Positions 645 through 30,369 of a stretch of DNA of 64,000 bases are shown in pieces; position 1 is the first letter of the stretch; each line of letters opens with the position of its first letter. The stretch comes from an uncultured Nitrospirales bacterium (lineage in GTDB: Bacteria > Nitrospirota > Nitrospiria > Nitrospirales > UBA8639), in the NCBI GenBank assembly GCA_958295805.1, contig OY282373.1, forward strand, positions 1-64,000, given 5' to 3'. The notes beneath the pieces were generated by a model. That model saw only the letters and a list, made by a program, of their open reading frames with translations. It searched no databases and was not told the origin of the DNA. Made by a program: the position numbers and the translations under genes.

Positions 645-3600
645 TTACACCTTGATCTTAATGTGGTCGCCCTTGAGCCACTTGATCATAAACTCATTTT
701 CCTGTCCAGGCGTAAACCCGGTCCGGACTGGCTCCCACGGGCCCCGGCCGCCAATACCGCCGTCTTCTGCCTTCGTAATCCGCATCAGACATTCCTTCGG
801 AGTCGTATTGACCGCGTGGTTGTCCACTTGGTACCCGAATTTGAACTTCCAACCCACCGCGTGTTTGCCTGGCAGCGAGTCGGTCTGATGCATCGGCATC
901 AACCAATCCCGGGTAAAGGACTGTTGCGCCCCGTACCTGAAATTCGATTGATACCCCGTATCCATCGCGATGGCCCGTCCATCCGGCCGCGTTTCATGGC
1001 CTTTCACGGATTTCGCGGTTGCCACGTACGGCGCGTGTTTCGCCATCGTGACGTGGTACGGGAAGGCTGGGTTGTACTTCGACCGAATCATCAACCGCGC
1101 CACTTTGTAATACGGATCTGATGGTTTCCAGCCCCGATACGGACGATCCACCGGGTTGCCGTCAACGTACACGTAGTCCCCGTCGTTAATCCCACGGTCT
1201 TTCGCCGCTTGCGGGTTCATGTGCAATTGATGCTCCCCGACGCCCGGGGTCCGTTTATCCATCCGATACGCATCCCCGAAGTTCGATTCATACATCTGTA
1301 CCCAGTCGTTCACGGACCATTGACTGTGTACCCGATGCCGCGTCTTCGGCGTCACGCAGTAGAATTGATACCCCTTCTCCCACAACGGATTGGAGTACCG
1401 TTTGATTTCCTGCCACGGCAACGCAATGTTCCGCACCGTCTTGTCGTCATGGTGCTGCGCCGTGATCGGAATCCCGTAGTCATCCGGCCGTACATACGGG
1501 TTCGTCGTCATAATCGCATTCGGCAAGTACGGCGTAGCTTCCGTGCCTTCCCGGTGCGAAATGAAGTTTTCCCCGTATTCAATGGCTTCCGGCTCCGTCC
1601 GGTAGTTTTCATACCGGCCAGTCCGCGTCCATTGTGGCTTCGATTCGTTCGTCTCTTCCCAGAACGGTTGCCGCGGATAGGTCCGGCACAGCACCATCCA
1701 GCCCTTCTCGGACTTGAGCATGGTGTCTACGCTGTACCCATACGCCGTACAACTGGCATCCAACAACCGTTGCACGTACACGTCCACCCGGTTGTCGTAG
1801 ACGAACTTGAAGTAATCCCGGAACCGCTTATCACCGGTCATCTCGGTCAATTTCGCGGCAACCCCGGCCGTCGTATCCAAGTCGTTCCGCGTGTCATACA
1901 AGGGCCGAATACCGCCCTTCCACACTTGGAACCACGGATTGGACACCGTCGCCGTATGTTCGGGATAGGTAAATTCCATCCACGTATTGACACCCATTGC
2001 GACATCCGCGTGGTTCACGTCGGACGTCATCTCAATATCCTGGGTGACGATACATTCAATGTGCGGATCGACGTTCTTGACCATGTCATAGTGATGTTTC
2101 GCGTTGTTCAACACGTTCACGTTTGCCACCCAACGGAACTTCGTCGGGGTCGGCATGTGGGTTTTACCCGTGAACACCCGACGACCATACTTGGGCGTGT
2201 TCACGATCAACGCCGTATCGCCATGGTTCCAGTACGCGACCTCTTCACCATAGTAATACCCACGCACGTGTACTTCTTTCCCGTGCGCGTTCGGATCCAA
2301 GGTAATCTTGAACGGATTCTCCGCGGTATGGGTTCCGAGACCGCCACCGGACCACGGCGTGGCGTTCCAGATGCCCGCCTTGTAGTTACCGGCCCAGGTA
2401 TGTTGCCCGGTCCCGAACTTCCCAACGTTCCCCGTGATAATCAACACCATCGCCGCGCCTCGCGCAATGATGGTCTGATGGAAATAGTGGTTCGTTCCTT
2501 CCCCGTTGTGAATCGTCGCCGGCTTAATGGCACCTGAATCTCTCGCCCAACGAACGATCAAGTCCTTCGGGGACCGGTTGATCTGATGCACCGTGTCCAG
2601 GTCATAGTCCTGCAAGTGCACTTGATACAACTGGAAGATCGGAGCCACATCCACTTCACGGCCATTGAGCAACTGCACCCGATACGTCCCGGTCAAAGCC
2701 GGTTCAATGCCGCTCGTGCGGAAATGCCATCCCACTAATTCCCGGTGAATCGGGACAGCCTGATTCTTATTGATGTCCCACATCATGAATCCGCCCAACC
2801 GCGCAATCTTCGCAGGATTCAAGGTTTGCACTTTCCCGGAATACGTCTTGGAAAAATCCGGGAATTTCCATCCCTTAATCACGTCCCGCGGATCCAGATA
2901 TTGCAGCGTGTCCGTCCGGACCAGAATCGGCATGTCCGTATAGGCCGCGCAGAAATCATGGTCGTGCATGTTCTCATCAAAGATGATTTTACACGCTCCC
3001 AGGAACAACGCCGCGTCCGTCTCCGGCCGCACCGGAATCCAGTAGTCCGCGCGATACGCCGTCGGGTTGTACTCCGGCGTGATCACCACGACCCGCGCCC
3101 CACGCTCAATGCTCTCGAGCTTCCAGTGCGCTTCCGGCATCTTGTTCTCGACGAAGTTCTTTCCCCAGCTTGTGTTCAGCTTGGAAAACCGCATGTCGTT
3201 CATGTCAATGTCGGAGGTTTGCACCCCAGACCAGAACGGATGCGCCGGGTTTTGGTCACCGTGCCACGTGTAATTGGACCAATACCGTCCGCCCTGAGCT
3301 TGATTCGGCTTCACTTTCCGAATGTAGGTATCCAACAGGGCACCACAGCCACCGTTCATCCGGGTGACCGCCATTTTTCCAATCACACCCAGGATGGGCA
3401 TCCCCGCCCGGAACTTCATGGTCCGGACGCCCGACCCCTTGGTCATCTCGATCATTTCCGGCGGATAGCCTTGTTCCCGCAACCGACGGGCTCCGGCTTC
3501 ACCGCTGTACCGTTCTGCGATGACGACCATGGCTTTGGCCAGATACGTAAACGCCGTATCCCAGCTTACCCGCAACATGTCATCCAAGTACCGGGAAGTG

Positions 3601-4082
3601 AATTTGTACTTGTTCATGACGTCAGGCGTGAACTCCGGGCTTCCGGCATCCATCCAGGCTTTCCAGCCGCGACGCATCAAGGGACCCTTCAACCGATACG
3701 GCCCATACACCCGACGATGCATCGTGTACCCCTTCAAACACATCCGGGGATTGTGTGCAAACGTCCCACGATTGCCATAAAGGTCTTCGTAGGTTTGATG
3801 GTCATAGTTCTGCTCAACCCGCATCACGACCCCGTTCCGCACAAAGGACCTCACGCGGCAAGCGTGGGTGTCGTTGGGAGAGCAGACCCAAGTAAAGGAT
3901 GAATCATACCGATACTGATCGTGGTACACCCGCTCCCAGGCCCGGTCAGGATACTCGCCCAGCGGGTTCCCCACTTCGACAACCGGTTGCAGCGCGGTCA
4001 AGGCCAAGGCTTTGTCCGCCAACGCCACGGCCGCCACCGTCCCGGTGGTCACTTTCAAAAATTGCCGTCTAGAAAGAAACAT
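645..4082 (-). CDS. nxrA: Nitrite oxidoreductase alpha (molybdenum) subunit
   Basis: This is the catalytic subunit that oxidises nitrite to nitrate and carries bis-MGD molybdenum and one Fe-S cluster. The N-terminus holds a twin-arginine signal (SRRQFLK, then a hydrophobic run ending near ALADKALA), so the enzyme should face the periplasm as in other Nitrospira. Early cysteines (WVCSPNDTHACRVRSF and NPRMCLKG, residues about 65-120) fit the Fe-S site. The Asp-rich GVQTSDIDMNDMRF segment (about residue 290) lies where type II enzymes place the Mo ligand; that is inference. I chose the ATG at 4080-4082 because AGGAGG lies 8 bases upstream; an in-frame TTG at 4088 is too close to that site. The product is about 1,145 residues, the usual NxrA length. 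It probably forms an operon with nxrB. Confidence 0.96.
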   Translation of the reverse strand: MFLSRRQFLKVTTGTVAAVALADKALALTALQPVVEVGNPLGEYPDRAWERVYHDQYRYDSSFTWVCSPNDTHACRVRSFVRNGVVMRVEQNYDHQTYEDLYGNRGTFAHNPRMCLKGYTMHRRVYGPYRLKGPLMRRGWKAWMDAGSPEFTPDVMNKYKFTSRYLDDMLRVSWDTAFTYLAKAMVVIAERYSGEAGARRLREQGYPPEMIEMTKGSGVRTMKFRAGMPILGVIGKMAVTRMNGGCGALLDTYIRKVKPNQAQGGRYWSNYTWHGDQNPAHPFWSGVQTSDIDMNDMRFSKLNTSWGKNFVENKMPEAHWKLESIERGARVVVITPEYNPTAYRADYWIPVRPETDAALFLGACKIIFDENMHDHDFCAAYTDMPILVRTDTLQYLDPRDVIKGWKFPDFSKTYSGKVQTLNPAKIARLGGFMMWDINKNQAVPIHRELVGWHFRTSGIEPALTGTYRVQLLNGREVDVAPIFQLYQVHLQDYDLDTVHQINRSPKDLIVRWARDSGAIKPATIHNGEGTNHYFHQTIIARGAAMVLIITGNVGKFGTGQHTWAGNYKAGIWNATPWSGGGLGTHTAENPFKITLDPNAHGKEVHVRGYYYGEEVAYWNHGDTALIVNTPKYGRRVFTGKTHMPTPTKFRWVANVNVLNNAKHHYDMVKNVDPHIECIVTQDIEMTSDVNHADVAMGVNTWMEFTYPEHTATVSNPWFQVWKGGIRPLYDTRNDLDTTAGVAAKLTEMTGDKRFRDYFKFVYDNRVDVYVQRLLDASCTAYGYSVDTMLKSEKGWMVLCRTYPRQPFWEETNESKPQWTRTGRYENYRTEPEAIEYGENFISHREGTEATPYLPNAIMTTNPYVRPDDYGIPITAQHHDDKTVRNIALPWQEIKRYSNPLWEKGYQFYCVTPKTRHRVHSQWSVNDWVQMYESNFGDAYRMDKRTPGVGEHQLHMNPQAAKDRGINDGDYVYVDGNPVDRPYRGWKPSDPYYKVARLMIRSKYNPAFPYHVTMAKHAPYVATAKSVKGHETRPDGRAIAMDTGYQSNFRYGAQQSFTRDWLMPMHQTDSLPGKHAVGWKFKFGYQVDNHAVNTTPKECLMRITKAEDGGIGGRGPWEPVRTGFTPGQENEFMIKWLKGDHIKIKV

Positions 4083-4185
4083 TCTCAATACCTCCTCGTG
4101 TAAAGACCTTGTTCTGAAGGCCTAACGTGGAATAGATGAACTTGAAAACCCCCAAGAATGTCGGGGTTTGGTGAAACGTGAACAT
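4069..4185 (-). CDS. Possible 38-codon leader ORF overlapping the nxrA start
   Basis: An ORF of 38 codons starts with ATG at 4183-4185 behind a very strong ribosome site (AAAGGAGGTGG, 4188-4198) and ends with TAG at 4069-4071. It overlaps the first 14 bases of nxrA in another frame. The peptide begins MFTFHQTPTFLGVFKFIYS and is hydrophobic and aromatic in its first half. I recognise no family. The position suggests a leader peptide or translational coupling to nxrA, or a small membrane peptide. Its ribosome site is at least as good as that of nxrA. It could be a chance ORF kept by its overlap with the nxrA signals. Confidence 0.4.
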   Translation of the reverse strand: MFTFHQTPTFLGVFKFIYSTLGLQNKVFTRGGIENVSF

Positions 4186-5161: not shown

Positions 5162-5452
5162 ATGACCCTAGAAGAAATCAAAATGACGAAGTTGCATAGG
5201 GCAGCAAAGCGTGGCCACGTTGCCGTCGTGAAGGTGATGCTGAAGGCGAGGGCGGACATGGAGGCGAGGGATGAGAACGGAGGGACGGTGTTGCATTGGG
5301 CGGCAGGCCAGAGACATGCCGAAGCCGTCAAGGTGCTTCTGGAGCATGGGGCGAACGTGGGGGTGAGGGATAAGAGGGGAGCGACCCCACGCAACGTAGC
5401 CGAGCACGATGAGGTCGCCCGGCTGCTTGACCAGGCCACCCGTGAACTGTAG
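5162..5452 (+). CDS. Small ankyrin-repeat protein
   Basis: A 96-residue protein starts at the ATG 5162, 6 bases after AAAGGAG. It has two to three ankyrin repeats: TKLHRAAKRGHVAVVKVML (residues 9-27), a second with TVLHWAAGQRHAEAVKVLLEH, and a shorter last one (GATPRNVAEHDEVARLL). Ankyrin stacks bind other proteins; the partner is not evident. There is no signal peptide, so it should be cytoplasmic. Its stop codon TAG (5450-5452) is part of the GTAGGG edge of the REP-like hairpin at 5449-5471, so the hairpin insertion may have set the present end of the protein. Neighbours are other tiny ORFs of unknown role. Confidence 0.75.
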   Translation: MTLEEIKMTKLHRAAKRGHVAVVKVMLKARADMEARDENGGTVLHWAAGQRHAEAVKVLLEHGANVGVRDKRGATPRNVAEHDEVARLLDQATREL

Positions 5453-5471
5453 GGCGGCATCTCATGCCGCC
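5449..5471 (+). repeat. REP-like hairpin (GGCGGCATCTCATGCCGCC)
   Basis: This copy has a perfect stem. Its GTAGGG edge provides the stop codon of the ankyrin gene, and the ribosome site of the next small ORF follows at once. Confidence 0.75.
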
Positions 5472-5486
5472 AAGAAAGGAGCCATC

Positions 5487-5588
5487 ATGACCCACCGCTT
5501 ACGCACCCACCCGCACGTCATCTATGGCGACGCCGAGACCCAACGGGTTTGGATTGATGAAGTCGAACTGACTCCCGAGGAATCATGA
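5487..5588 (+). CDS. 33-residue protein of unknown function
   Basis: ATG at 5487 with AAAGGAG 6 bases upstream; the peptide is MTHRLRTHPHVIYGDAETQ through to a C-terminal EVELTPEES. No family is recognised. The ribosome site has the same AAAGGAG form as the ankyrin gene's, and the ORF follows that gene after a hairpin. Its TGA overlaps the ATG of the next ORF (TCATGA), which suggests translational coupling. It is very short, so it may be a fragment of a larger ancestor. Confidence 0.4.
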   Translation: MTHRLRTHPHVIYGDAETQRVWIDEVELTPEES

Positions 5589-5656
5589 CGTATCGGATTC
5601 ATTCCCCAGACGGGTTCTGTTGGGGCTACAGCGGGAGCCAAGCCAGCTTGCGTTAG
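5585..5656 (+). CDS. 23-residue ORF coupled to the preceding one
   Basis: The ATG at 5585 overlaps the stop of the previous ORF by four bases. The peptide MTYRIHSPDGFCWGYSGSQ is short, aromatic and contains one cysteine. No family is recognised, and it may be a remnant. Confidence 0.25.
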   Translation: MTYRIHSPDGFCWGYSGSQASLR

Positions 5657-5676
5657 CCATCCTGCCACATAAATCC

Positions 5677-5699
5677 GACGTCATGAGATGACGCCCTAC
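5677..5699 (-). repeat. REP-like hairpin (GGCGTCATCTCATGACG)
   Basis: A copy in reverse orientation, ending in CCCTAC. Its stem bases are GT/AC where other copies have GG/CC, GC/GC or AG/CT, and pairing is kept. Confidence 0.7.
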
Positions 5700-5722
5700 C
5701 TCAGCAGGCGATCTCGTCGCCA

Positions 5723-5745
5723 GGTGTCATGAGATGACGTCCTAC
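5723..5745 (-). repeat. REP-like hairpin (GACGTCATCTCATGACACC)
   Basis: A second reverse copy 46 bases after the previous one, with one imperfect outer pair. Together they form a same-direction doublet. Confidence 0.65.
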
Positions 5746-5767
5746 CCTGCTGCGAGGTAAGAGCGTC

Positions 5768-5863
5768 ATGAACATCCTTGACCGTACCATCCAAATTCGT
5801 ATGAGCCAGGTTGAGGTTGGCGCGACTCGCGAGCATGTCCGAACGCATCGTGGGTTCCCGTAG
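5768..5863 (+). CDS. 31-residue ORF of unknown function
   Basis: ATG at 5768 with GAGGTAAG about 8-10 bases upstream; the peptide begins MNILDRTIQIRMSQVEVGA and ends at TAG 5863. No family is recognised. After it (5864-6004) I see nothing recognisable. Confidence 0.25.
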   Translation: MNILDRTIQIRMSQVEVGATREHVRTHRGFP

Positions 5864-6004
5864 ACGGTATCGAATTGGGGACGGCACGCCCTGCTGAACC
5901 AGGCTGTGTGGCCGGAACAGACGTTGACGGGCTTGATTCGATTGCGCGACCTCGATACGCGTAGAGTTACGCGGAGCGAGATGCGATCAGGATTTGGAAC
6001 GATC

Positions 6005-7042
6005 TCACTGCACGTGTGTACTCAGGGTTAAGGGGACAGGGATCCAGGAATTCCCACCATCTTCACTTCGGAATAACCCCCCGCCGTTCGTTCCGACGTA
6101 CAATACTCGCGGATTGTGAGGCTCCATGGCGATAGCTCGAATGTTGCGATTGGTTAATCCCTCATTGTGGGCAGTCCATGATTGACCGCTGTCCTGACTC
6201 CGAAACATGCCTTTGCTCGTTCCCATGTACAGGTGGTGAACGTTTCCCGGATCCAGGATCAGACAGCTCACGTACTGATCGCCCAGGGCCATCGCCATTC
6301 TGGCCCACGCCTCCCCTTTATTGAGGGTTTTGAACAACCCCTGCGTCGTCCCGGCATAGACTTCATCCGGATTGGCCGGATTGATGAGCAATCGGTTCAC
6401 GCCCAGGGCCATGGACGCCATTTTGGCATCATCCGGGACAAGCCCGTTATTGATTTTGACCCAATGGTCTGCTCCGTCAAAACTCCGGTAGACACCCCCG
6501 CTGGTTCCCGCGTAGATGATATTGGGATGCCTCGGGTCCACGGCCAACGTCACGATAAAATTGATCTCGGTCATGCCGCGCATGTGCTCGTTCCAGGACT
6601 GTCCGCCGTCGGTGGTCCGGAACACGCCCACGGTGGTCGCTGCGTACAGGATTTGGGTGTCCGTCGGGTGAAAAACCAGTTGATTCACATTTGCGGAAAT
6701 CGTCCCTTTCTGAATGCCGGTATTTCTGGGAAGCCAACGCCGTCCCCCATCAGGGCTTTTGTACACCCCATCGGCAAGTGTCCCGACAAAGACGTTGGCC
6801 GGAAGTTGGGGATCAATCACCACGTTCATCACCCGAATGCGGTTCAACCCCTCGGAGAAACGCTTCCATGATCGTCCTCGGTCTCGGGTTTTATAGACGG
6901 CTTCGTCTGTGGCGACGTAGATGATCTTGGTTTTGGTGGGATGCACCGCCACCGAGACGACGCGATCACTGCGCTGGCTACACCCTGCCACCATGAGCAG
7001 GGCCACCCCAAAAACGACCGCGCGTCGGATGCTAGTTGTCAT
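6005..7042 (-). CDS. Lipoprotein with Asp-box (BNR/sortilin-like) beta-propeller repeats
   Basis: A 345-residue exported lipoprotein: signal peptide with a lipobox ending VAGC (Cys21). The rest is a chain of repeats of about 45-50 residues, each with an Asp-box such as TRDRGRSWKRF, SPDGGRRWLP, TTDGGQSWNEH, SQDSGQSWTAH and SEDGGNSWIPV. A typical segment before each box reads HPTDTQILYAATTVGVF. Such repeats fold as a beta-propeller, as in BNR/sialidase-like and Ycf48-like proteins. No catalytic sialidase residues are evident, so a binding or assembly role at the membrane is more likely. A hairpin (7050-7072) separates it from the CrtC/AttH-like gene upstream on the same strand. Confidence 0.8.
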   Translation of the reverse strand: MTTSIRRAVVFGVALLMVAGCSQRSDRVVSVAVHPTKTKIIYVATDEAVYKTRDRGRSWKRFSEGLNRIRVMNVVIDPQLPANVFVGTLADGVYKSPDGGRRWLPRNTGIQKGTISANVNQLVFHPTDTQILYAATTVGVFRTTDGGQSWNEHMRGMTEINFIVTLAVDPRHPNIIYAGTSGGVYRSFDGADHWVKINNGLVPDDAKMASMALGVNRLLINPANPDEVYAGTTQGLFKTLNKGEAWARMAMALGDQYVSCLILDPGNVHHLYMGTSKGMFRSQDSGQSWTAHNEGLTNRNIRAIAMEPHNPRVLYVGTNGGGLFRSEDGGNSWIPVPLTLSTHVQ

Positions 7043-25374: not shown

Positions 25375-25617
25375 ATGACGACTCTTAACGCAACCGAAGC
25401 CCGGGCCAGGTTATACAAGTTGATTGACGAGGTTTCCCAAATACATGAACCCGTCGTGATTACAGGAAAAAGAAGTAATGCCGTCCTTCTTGCAGAGGAA
25501 GATTGGAACGCGATCAATGAAACGCTCTACCTGACCTCTATTCCAGGAGTGCGAGAATCCATCATTGAAGGAATGGCAACCAGCCTTGATGCGTGTGATA
25601 AAGAACTTGACTGGTAA
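25375..25617 (+). CDS. yefM: Phd/YefM-family antitoxin
   Basis: An 80-residue antitoxin with MTTLNATEARARLYKLIDEV at the N-terminus, followed by PVVITGKRSNAVLLAEEDWNAINETLYL, the typical Phd/YefM fold. The acidic C-terminus should mask the toxin. ATG 25375 has GGAGG 6 bases upstream. Its stop overlaps the toxin start (TAATG). The pair sits antisense to the aromatic amino acid cluster, between tyrA and hisC. Confidence 0.93.
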   Translation: MTTLNATEARARLYKLIDEVSQIHEPVVITGKRSNAVLLAEEDWNAINETLYLTSIPGVRESIIEGMATSLDACDKELDW

Positions 25618-25877
25618 TGTGGGAACTGTATTTCACCCGGCAAGCCAGGAAGGACGCCAAAAAGCTGGCTGCCGCCGGCTTAAAAGAAAACGCTGAAGAA
25701 CTGCTTGATCTCCTTCGAGAAAATCCCTACCAAAATCCCCCACCGTATGAAAAATTAGTCGGCGATTTAGCCGGTGCTTGTTCTCGGAGAATCACGATAC
25801 AGCATCGGCTAGTGTATCAGATACTTGAAAAAAGGAAAGCCGTAAAGGTGTTACGTTTATGGACGCATTATGAATAG
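25617..25877 (+). CDS. yoeB: YoeB-family toxin
   Basis: An 86-residue toxin of the RelE superfamily that cleaves mRNA in the ribosome. Family features are FTRQARKDAKKLAAAGL, NPYQNPPPYEKLVGDLAGACSRR and IQHRLVYQILEKRKAVKVLRLWTHYE. The catalytic residues Glu (YEKL), Arg (SRRI), and the C-terminal His-Tyr (THYE) are present. It overlaps the antitoxin by one base. Confidence 0.94.
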   Translation: MWELYFTRQARKDAKKLAAAGLKENAEELLDLLRENPYQNPPPYEKLVGDLAGACSRRITIQHRLVYQILEKRKAVKVLRLWTHYE

Positions 25878-28234: not shown

Positions 28235-29029
28235 TTACAATCGATTCAATTCGCGCTGTTCCACGGCTGAGGAGACCGTTTTCACCAGCCGATCTTTCCA
28301 GAGTGGTTTGACGAGAAAATCTTTCACGCCGTCGCGAATCATCCCCGCTAACTTTTCGGATCGCAGCAGTCGGGACTGCATGTCCCGTTCTCGTTGAATC
28401 AACAGCCACAAGAGTTTCGACGCAGCCCCACCGAGCACCTCCGTCCGTTCACGTTTGTTCTCGGCAATCAACCCTTCCATGGACGGATCACCGGTGACGT
28501 CAATGATGAGGTCTACATCATCCCGCCGGACCAGGCTCATCGCATCATGGACCACCGGCACGTTGGATTTCTGCGCCAGTTGCAGGCCAGGAGCATCAGG
28601 GTCTTTGTCGGTCATGCCCACCACCTGGGCGGCAGGAAGATGAAGAAACACGTCGAGAAGCGCCTGTCCTCCTTTTCCTGCTCCCACAATGGCCATCTGG
28701 ATTTCTGAAGAACCCGAATCCTGTTGTTCAAGCAGTCCCGTTAAGGCGATCAAGGGAACGTGCGGAAATTGGGTTTTGAAATAATTCAGGGAATCCATCC
28801 CCACGTTCTTGTCGATATCCGTGATGACGGCATCAAGCAACAGGGGATTTTCACCTTCATTGGCCACGCGGACCGCCTGATCCTGCGTCTTAGCCTCCAA
28901 CACGTCGAACCCCGCGGTTTCCAAGGTCGTCCGCATCTCGTGACAAATATCGGGATCGTCCTCAACCAGCAACACGCGGCCGTACCCTGGTGTGGAACCA
29001 AACATCGCTGCAGTTTTCGGTTCTGTCAT
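28235..29029 (-). CDS. Response regulator receiver interrupted by a Rossmann-like domain
   Basis: A 264-residue protein with an unusual build. Residues 18-99 are the first part of a receiver domain: RVLLVEDDPDICHEM (acidic D24/D25), phosphoacceptor D71 in AVITDID, and T97 in PLIALTG. The last receiver part, with the conserved Lys (GVKDFLVKPLW, K241) and the final helix, comes only at residues 229-262. Between them, at about 101-228, lies a separate domain: AIVGAGKGGQALLDVF (GxGxxG nucleotide-binding start), VVGMTDKDPDAPGLQLA, DVDLIIDVTGDPSMEG and the helix SKLLWLLIQRERD. So an NAD-binding-like sensor fold is inserted after beta-4 of an otherwise intact receiver. ATG 29029 has a strong AAGGAGGG site. 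No kinase gene is adjacent. Confidence 0.8.
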   Translation of the reverse strand: MTEPKTAAMFGSTPGYGRVLLVEDDPDICHEMRTTLETAGFDVLEAKTQDQAVRVANEGENPLLLDAVITDIDKNVGMDSLNYFKTQFPHVPLIALTGLLEQQDSGSSEIQMAIVGAGKGGQALLDVFLHLPAAQVVGMTDKDPDAPGLQLAQKSNVPVVHDAMSLVRRDDVDLIIDVTGDPSMEGLIAENKRERTEVLGGAASKLLWLLIQRERDMQSRLLRSEKLAGMIRDGVKDFLVKPLWKDRLVKTVSSAVEQRELNRL

Positions 29030-29060
29030 GATGACCCTCCTTGATTATCAACGGACGTGA

Positions 29061-29098
29061 AAAAAGCCCTTCGGATTTTCAACGTCCGGAGGGCTTTT
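29061..29098 (-). terminator. Rho-independent terminator, possibly bidirectional
   Basis: AAAAAGCCCTTCGGA and TCCGGAGGGCTTTT form a long GC-rich stem with A-runs and T-runs on both sides. It can end leftward transcripts from the ppk2 side before the response regulator gene. Confidence 0.7.
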
Positions 29099-29302: not shown

Positions 29303-29464
29303 GTGACGTCTTCTTCATCATCGGAGTGGGACAACGAGGCCTTGCTGACATCCATGGCGAATCCGACCAAACGTCTCTCCACGGTGTTTTGTCAACCGAC
29401 GTCCACGAACGAAGAACTCGCGGCCTATCAAGCCTTGGTCGAATCCCGCTCGCGGGCGAGCTAG
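29303..29464 (+). CDS. Possible 53-residue ORF or remnant
   Basis: A reading from GTG 29303 (or ATG 29354) to TAG 29464 gives a protein-like sequence: SSEWDNEALLTSMANPTKR, then STNEELAAYQALVESRSRAS. I recognise no family and see no ribosome site. The end overlaps the stop of ppk2 on the other strand. It could be the tail of a decayed gene. Between 29100 and 29302 I see nothing else. Confidence 0.22.
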   Translation: MTSSSSSEWDNEALLTSMANPTKRLSTVFCQPTSTNEELAAYQALVESRSRAS

Positions 29465-30369
29465 CCGTTCTTTTTTCCTGAGCCTCGAAGGTCCCGTCCT
29501 GAGCCTTGAAGGACCTTTTTCGCGTGGGTGTACCGTTGTTGCTGTTCCGACCCGATTCTGGGATACGCAAGGCCGAGCCCCTTTAACGTCTTCACGATGA
29601 TCTCGGCGATACAGGTTCGCATGTAGGGCTTGTTGTCCGCGGGAACGACATACCAGGGCGCCCATGGTCGCGAGGTGGCATTCAGGCACTCTTCATAGGC
29701 CTTCATGTAGCGATTCCAGAGTTTCCGTTCCTTCAGATCTTCCTCGGAAAACTTCCAATATTTTTCGGGTTGTTCGAGCCTGGAGAGCAACCGTTTCTTT
29801 TGTTCAGCCTTGGACACGTTCAACCAGAACTTCAAGATGATCGTGCCGTTGCGCGCCAGATGCTTCTCATGGTCGCGAATGGATTCGTATCGCTCCGCCC
29901 AGAGCCGCTTCAGATCGACGGGATTCCGCGGGACGTCTCTTTCCAGCCATTCGGGATGCACCCGTACAATGAGCACTTCTTCATAATAGCTTCGATTGAA
30001 GATGCCGATCTTGCCCCGTTCCGGCAGTCGAAGGCTCGTCCGCCACAGAAAATCATGTGCCCGTTCCGAGGCCGTCGGCGTTTTGAACGAAAAGACTTGG
30101 CATCCGGAAGGATCGACGCCGCTCATCACGGCTCGAATGGTACTATCCTTCCCCGCGGCATCCATCGCTTGAAAAATCAGTAGCAACGCATATCGTTCAT
30201 CGGCATAGAGCATGCGTTGCCACCCATCCAGTTCATTGACGAGTCGGTGAAGCCTTGACGCGCAGATTTTTTTGCTCGGGGCCTCGGCCGGCGGACGGGT
30301 TCGCGCCTCCTTCACGGCAAATGACCCATCAAATGGAACAAGACACGGATGAGAGGGAACCGGAATCAT
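29461..30369 (-). CDS. ppk2: Polyphosphate kinase 2 family protein
   Basis: A 302-residue enzyme that transfers phosphate between polyphosphate and nucleotides. It has the PPK2 P-loop FQAMDAAGKDSTIRAVMSGV near residue 67, RLPERGKIGIFNRSYYEEVL with the Walker-B-like region, HLARNGTIILKFWLNVSK and NRYMKAYEECL. The type that phosphorylates AMP or ADP cannot be settled by eye. The last 15 or so residues (VLQGSGRDLRGSGKKNG) read through a CCTGAGCCTCGAAGG repeat, so the natural C-terminus may have been replaced. Cytoplasmic. Confidence 0.9.
   Translation of the reverse strand: MIPVPSHPCLVPFDGSFAVKEARTRPPAEAPSKKICASRLHRLVNELDGWQRMLYADERYALLLIFQAMDAAGKDSTIRAVMSGVDPSGCQVFSFKTPTASERAHDFLWRTSLRLPERGKIGIFNRSYYEEVLIVRVHPEWLERDVPRNPVDLKRLWAERYESIRDHEKHLARNGTIILKFWLNVSKAEQKKRLLSRLEQPEKYWKFSEEDLKERKLWNRYMKAYEECLNATSRPWAPWYVVPADNKPYMRTCIAEIIVKTLKGLGLAYPRIGSEQQQRYTHAKKVLQGSGRDLRGSGKKNG
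29478..29520 (-). repeat. CCTGAGC-TCGAAGG repeat at the ppk2 3' end
   Basis: CCTGAGCCTCGAAGG and CCTGAGCCTTGAAGG occur 19 bases apart. The same words occur in the element at 50601-50672. Confidence 0.5.

Follow-up and report, generated by a model that had tools for sequence, protein, structure and literature searches.

The gene studied here lies on the minus strand of the window (the whole 64,000-nucleotide stretch of DNA analysed) as one open reading frame, from an ATG at 29029 to a stop at 28235. Its product, referred to below as the nested protein, has a receiver segment at each end, with an NAD-type Rossmann domain and a long helix between them (Table 1). A terminator-like hairpin with a T run lies at about 29061-29096 (minus strand), between a promoter-like site and the ribosome-binding site. 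A leader RNA or riboswitch ahead of the gene was considered and rejected: Rfam returned only a sub-threshold match on the wrong strand, and the hairpin was not seen in same-genus orthologues.

Table 1. Position of the nested gene and its parts in the window
Feature	Position	Strand	Basis
Nested receiver / NAD-type Rossmann protein, whole gene, 264 aa	28235..29029	minus	ORF and translation
Shine-Dalgarno AAGGAGG	29036..29042	minus	Strong; kept ahead of nine of nine same-genus copies
Receiver part 1, residues 17-98 (β1 to β4; E23/D24, phospho-acceptor D71, T97)	28736..28981	minus	Pfam PF00072 19-103; AlphaFold strands/helices E18-22 to E93-98; invariant residues
Variable linker, residues 99-108	28706..28735	minus	Low pLDDT 102-105; dN/dS 0.72 vs 0.07-0.18 elsewhere
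Inserted NAD-type Rossmann domain, residues 109-201 (GAGKGG 116-121, D141, DVTG 177-180)	28427..28705	minus	PF01408 25.2 bits; isolated model pLDDT 90.4; Z 12.0 to 4lrs; similarity to kinase sensors 224 vs receivers 32
Signalling helix, residues 202-231, homologous to the helix leading into HisKA in relatives' kinases ('SEKLAGM'); predicted at receiver α4 position	28337..28426	minus	Continuous model helix; kinase similarity
Receiver part 2, residues 232-264 (β5 with K241, α5)	28238..28336	minus	One receiver fold with part 1; similarity to receivers 78, kinases 20 (shuffled level)

Elsewhere in the window, a gene at 645-4088 (minus strand) encodes an NxrA of 1147 aa, with a score of 1561 bits against 7b04_B, subunit A of nitrite oxidoreductase, which supports the suggestion of the first-pass annotation that the host is a nitrite oxidiser. 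A PPK2 polyphosphate kinase gene (29461-30369, minus strand) lies upstream of the nested gene; it was not seen beside the nested gene in any of the further genomes read from this genus. A YefM/YoeB-type toxin-antitoxin pair (25375-25877, plus strand) interrupts an aromatic amino acid cluster encoded on the opposite strand, where it lies between a tyrA-like and a hisC-like gene.

Receiver segments and fold closure

The Pfam Response_reg profile (PF00072) matched residues 19-103 (1.2e-11) and the match ended there; the C-terminus matched only the β5/α5 ends of other response regulators. Alignment to sister receivers placed the acidic pair at Glu23/Asp24 and not at Asp24/Asp25 as first annotated, whereas the other landmarks named at that stage, Asp71, Thr97 and Lys241, were upheld. 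The DxxMP loop that follows the phospho-Asp, a common but not strictly defining receiver feature, is two residues shorter in all nested forms (DIDK--xxG versus DIRMPKxNG).

The whole protein was modelled with AlphaFold2 from an input in which receivers were cut at residue ~103, Rossmann domains had been excised from kinases, and no more than three rows, two of them from nested relatives, spanned the full nested form, because ordinary receivers linking both halves would have built the answer into the alignment; β5-α5 was covered by these three rows only. The model (pLDDT 83.1, pTM 0.54) has β1-α1-β2-α2-β3-α3-β4 at residues 18-98, the Rossmann domain at 110-200, a helix at 202-231, β5 at 235-241 and α5 at 245-263. 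In structural alignment its residues 16-263 matched the complete receiver 3jte with a Z of 18.8 and 1.7 Å over 115 of 126 residues, and both halves therefore close into one receiver with a complete active site, as had been proposed. The same alignment identifies the Lys strand as receiver β5, and the opposing possibilities named in the first-pass annotation, separate incomplete domains or a Lys strand belonging to another fold, were rejected. Helix 202-231 stands in for α4 in the model, in which the two junctions, 102-105 and 227-232, are modelled with low confidence (pLDDT under 50 at the second) and the domain orientation is undefined (pTM 0.54). When the whole model was searched with Foldseek, most alignments were mixed, at rmsd values of ~15 Å or more, because Foldseek bridges the insert badly; these were resolved by VIA-align.

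The inserted Rossmann domain

The NAD-binding Rossmann profile PF01408 matched residues 111-176 in the whole-protein search at 23.3 bits, just under its curated cut-off of 24, and the insert searched alone rose over that cut-off (25.2 bits); nine of ten family members matched at E 0.01 or better. Modelled in isolation (pLDDT 90.4, pTM 0.79), the insert resembles the NAD domains of Gfo/Idh/MocA proteins and acetaldehyde dehydrogenases (best Z 12.0, 4lrs), with which it shares the GxGxxG motif, the acidic residue at the end of β2 and the Rossmann fold. The nested protein lacks their catalytic domain, and its Rossmann domain is a putative sensor module. Rex, the NADH-sensing repressor, likewise uses a Rossmann domain for redox sensing and matched the insert weakly by profile (3e-4; Z 10.1), but it is a winged-helix protein without a receiver. 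Many dinucleotide folds matched about equally well (Z 10-12), and the fold therefore does not single out one ligand. Gly116, Gly118, Gly120, Gly121 and Asp141, the acidic residue at the end of β2, are invariant in the family alignment. The profile, isolated model and structural matches thus bear out the initial description of the insert as nucleotide-binding-like. We consider it very probable that the protein consists of a single receiver domain into which a folded NAD-type Rossmann domain has been set.

Mosaic origin from an adjacent gene pair

Most relatives have two adjacent genes instead: a 144-aa single-domain receiver (104 bits to PF00072), then a Rossmann-HisKA-HATPase_c kinase. In the neighbourhoods that were read, this pair is followed by genes for a dCache-HAMP-PAS kinase and a Tll0287-like haem protein. 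Relatives of the insert sit N-terminal to HisKA in the kinases encoded by the adjacent genes, in keeping with the mention in the first-pass annotation of Rossmann-like modules beside sensor kinases. For residues 1-98, similarity was 220 to the sister receivers and 28 to the sister kinases, whereas residues 111-201 gave 32 and 224, respectively. The helix (202-231) followed the kinases, with kinase scores of 51 and 31 and receiver scores at shuffled level; the values for residues 202-221 were 18 against receivers and 51 against kinases. Residues 232-264 returned to the receivers (78 versus 20). A shuffle control covered the three C-terminal pieces, and the low scores there equal shuffled level.

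The joints are also visible in short motifs. The nested protein retains TEKTAAMFGG, the tag at the N-terminus of the sister receiver. Its kinase homology stops at SEKLAGM, immediately ahead of the phospho-His segment AHDINNP, and the receiver α4 motif FPDxxMATxFxK is absent, the kinase helix running into β5. Searches of the nested protein gave no match to HisKA or HATPase. The nested protein is therefore a mosaic of the neighbouring pair, consisting of receiver β1-β4, the kinase sensor and signalling helix, and receiver β5-α5. The first-pass annotation had correctly located an insertion between Thr97 and the Lys strand, but had taken it for a simple insert of ~128 residues, whereas α4 itself has been replaced by the neighbouring kinase's sensor and signalling helix; its divisions at 18-99, 101-228 and 229-262 are refined to a receiver of about 17-98 plus 232-264, with linker, Rossmann domain and helix as in Table 1.

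Relative to the NAD-domain histidine kinases of Nitrospirota, the inserted domain and exit helix are homologous (~45-50% identical), but the nested protein has neither phospho-His nor HATPase and carries its Rossmann domain within a receiver rather than N-terminal to HisKA. With single-domain response regulators of the CheY/DivK/Spo0F type it shares the receiver fold, acidic pair, Asp, Thr, Lys and the lack of an output domain; it differs from them in the shortened DxxMP loop and in having the α4 sequence replaced by a Rossmann domain of 93 residues and a helix of 30. The putative ligand of the Rossmann domain is a dinucleotide, NAD(H) or one like it, as for the parental kinase.

On trees of the separate parts, a single change accounts for the nested forms in each case, with bootstraps of 92% for the receiver part and 30% for the Rossmann part. 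A single origin of the nested form, in Nitrospirales, is likely from these trees, with weak support in that of the Rossmann part. One genome (G249, contig L095) carries a nested gene with D71N at 68-928, 4.3 kb upstream of a parental receiver/NAD-kinase pair at 5251-6974, possibly a trace of the original duplication.

A second kind of NAD-type Rossmann kinase (Rossmann-HisKA_3-HATPase) was also observed (L022, 1387-2547; C1 of the window's own genome, ~1056155-1057315). It is followed by a LuxR-type regulator gene, nrdR-like and glyA-like genes adjoin, and relatives occur in most Nitrospirales genomes scanned.

Distribution and selection

As anticipated, the same nested order recurs in other Nitrospirota: it was found in 17 Nitrospirales genomes of eight genera and two families, at near-constant length (264-290 aa). 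These comprise nine of 14 genomes of the window's genus together with G015 (two copies), G024, G025, G026, G249, G142 (in which the last part of the copy is masked in the record), G162 and G173. No copy outside Nitrospirales was found at E 1e-60 in a 395-genome sample of the phylum, and a search for plasmid carriage found nothing beyond an ordinary receiver match. A contig labelled Gammaproteobacteria (L025, JAALKB010000128.1) has a nested gene that groups with the G015 and G025 copies; we suspect that it is mis-binned. The genus of the window is apparently GTDB 'bin75', i.e., Candidatus Nitrosymbion, which is known mostly from marine sponges (PMC11812461).

In an alignment of 13 homologues, Glu23, Asp71, Thr97, Lys241, GxGxGG, Asp141 and DVTG were invariant, and Asp24 nearly so. 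Median dN/dS among nine same-genus orthologues was 0.155 overall: 0.136 for receiver part 1, 0.181 for the Rossmann domain, 0.137 for the helix, 0.065 (the lowest) for β5-α5 and 0.72 for the linker. Every part of the nested protein except the linker is under purifying selection. Derivation from two neighbouring genes could also have left functionless fusion debris, or the order could be an assembly error, but the probability of either is close to nil and both were rejected, given conservation of the order and length across these genomes, the dN/dS of ~0.16, the conserved ribosome-binding site and the retained active-site residues.

The nested protein and its parental genes

The parental pair has been lost from G000. 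Neither the dCache partner, in the g1 genomes tested, nor a parental-type NAD-kinase, in the window's own and the other g1 genomes, was found; the latter genomes have only a HisKA_3 kinase with a different linker. In G015 (L099) the parental receiver and dCache kinase genes are kept, the NAD-kinase between them is missing, and two nested genes lie elsewhere. These losses indicate that the nested protein is maintained on its own. They bear on the proposal that it regulates an NAD-sensing kinase, poisoning or tuning the parental enzyme through mixed dimers formed by the shared signalling helix. The kinase origin of that helix is in its favour, as is the co-occurrence of both proteins in G024, G025 and G249 (in the last at the nearby loci described above), but persistence of the nested protein where its supposed target is missing, in G015 as in the g1 genomes, those tested lacking the dCache partner too, makes this role very unlikely.

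Proposed mechanism

Receivers are among the commonest bacterial switches, and their output is carried by the α4-β5-α5 face, which shifts upon phosphorylation. In kinases, a helix conveys the sensor signal into the phospho-His helix. We propose that α4 of a single-domain receiver was replaced, probably once, by the NAD-type sensor and signalling helix of the adjacent-gene kinase, such that the helix that formerly carried the sensor signal to the phospho-His helix would now enter receiver β5 directly. The ligand state of the Rossmann domain would tilt the α4-β5-α5 face, tune phosphorylation of Asp71 by a separate kinase, or both; ligand state and Asp71 phosphorylation would then act on the same face. 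Since there is no output domain, any effect must pass through a partner or a phosphorelay: the nested protein would either bind another protein or serve as a carrier of phosphate or a sink for it. One nested protein could in this way respond to a metabolite as well as to a phosphate signal. Because the host encodes NxrA, a redox or NAD(H) signal is plausible in this nitrite oxidiser. As a whole, the explanation that the protein is a single-domain regulator with α4 replaced by the neighbouring kinase's sensor and helix, and its face set by ligand and phosphate, has in our judgement an even chance of being correct.

The receiver might alternatively be a phosphorylation-independent scaffold whose state is set by the Rossmann domain alone, as in aspartate-less or ligand-controlled receivers, both of which are known (PMC4395418). 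Phosphorylation may indeed be altered or absent in some nested forms, to judge from the shortened DxxMP loop common to them all and from the substitutions D71N in G249 (L077/L095) and D24G in L010, and the single Asn at position 71 means that dual input is not universal. As a general account, however, the scaffold is rather unlikely: 18 of the 19 distinct nested sequences retain Asp71, which sets all nested forms examined except that of G249 apart from aspartate-less receivers; Thr97 is kept in 19 of 19, Lys241 wherever it is readable, and Glu23 is invariant; and the strongest constraint falls on β5-α5.

Returning to the regulator set by both ligand and phosphate, a more specific version is that a two-component pair has collapsed into one switch, with the grafted sensor and helix serving as α4 and the dinucleotide driving the output face, in coincidence with phosphorylation or as a substitute for it. 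This is tentative, and we rate it less likely than not; if true, the collapsed pair would be a natural domain-insertion allosteric switch.

Some fungal receivers (Ssk1 and some hybrid kinases) have predicted disordered inserts in the α2-β3 and α3-β4 loops (PMC8510515); these are likewise inserted sequences, but not folded domains replacing α4. A nested receiver with a folded sensor in place of α4 was not found in the open-access papers searched. A conserved ligand-binding domain at this position would show metabolite sensing wired straight into the output face, and a route by which a sensor kinase could fuse with its receiver. Since close relatives still have the two parental genes, the proteins before and after the merger can be compared directly in the laboratory.

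One subgroup of nested proteins has an N-terminal transmembrane-like helix, identified by eye (L011/G025, 1498-2370; L093/G015, 1247-2119; L025, 1705-2634). Directly behind the L025 copy lies a Tll0287-like CxxCH haem gene, assigned to that family by resemblance to the L096 protein. The membrane-anchored relatives and the haem gene are circumstantially consistent with a redox setting near the membrane.
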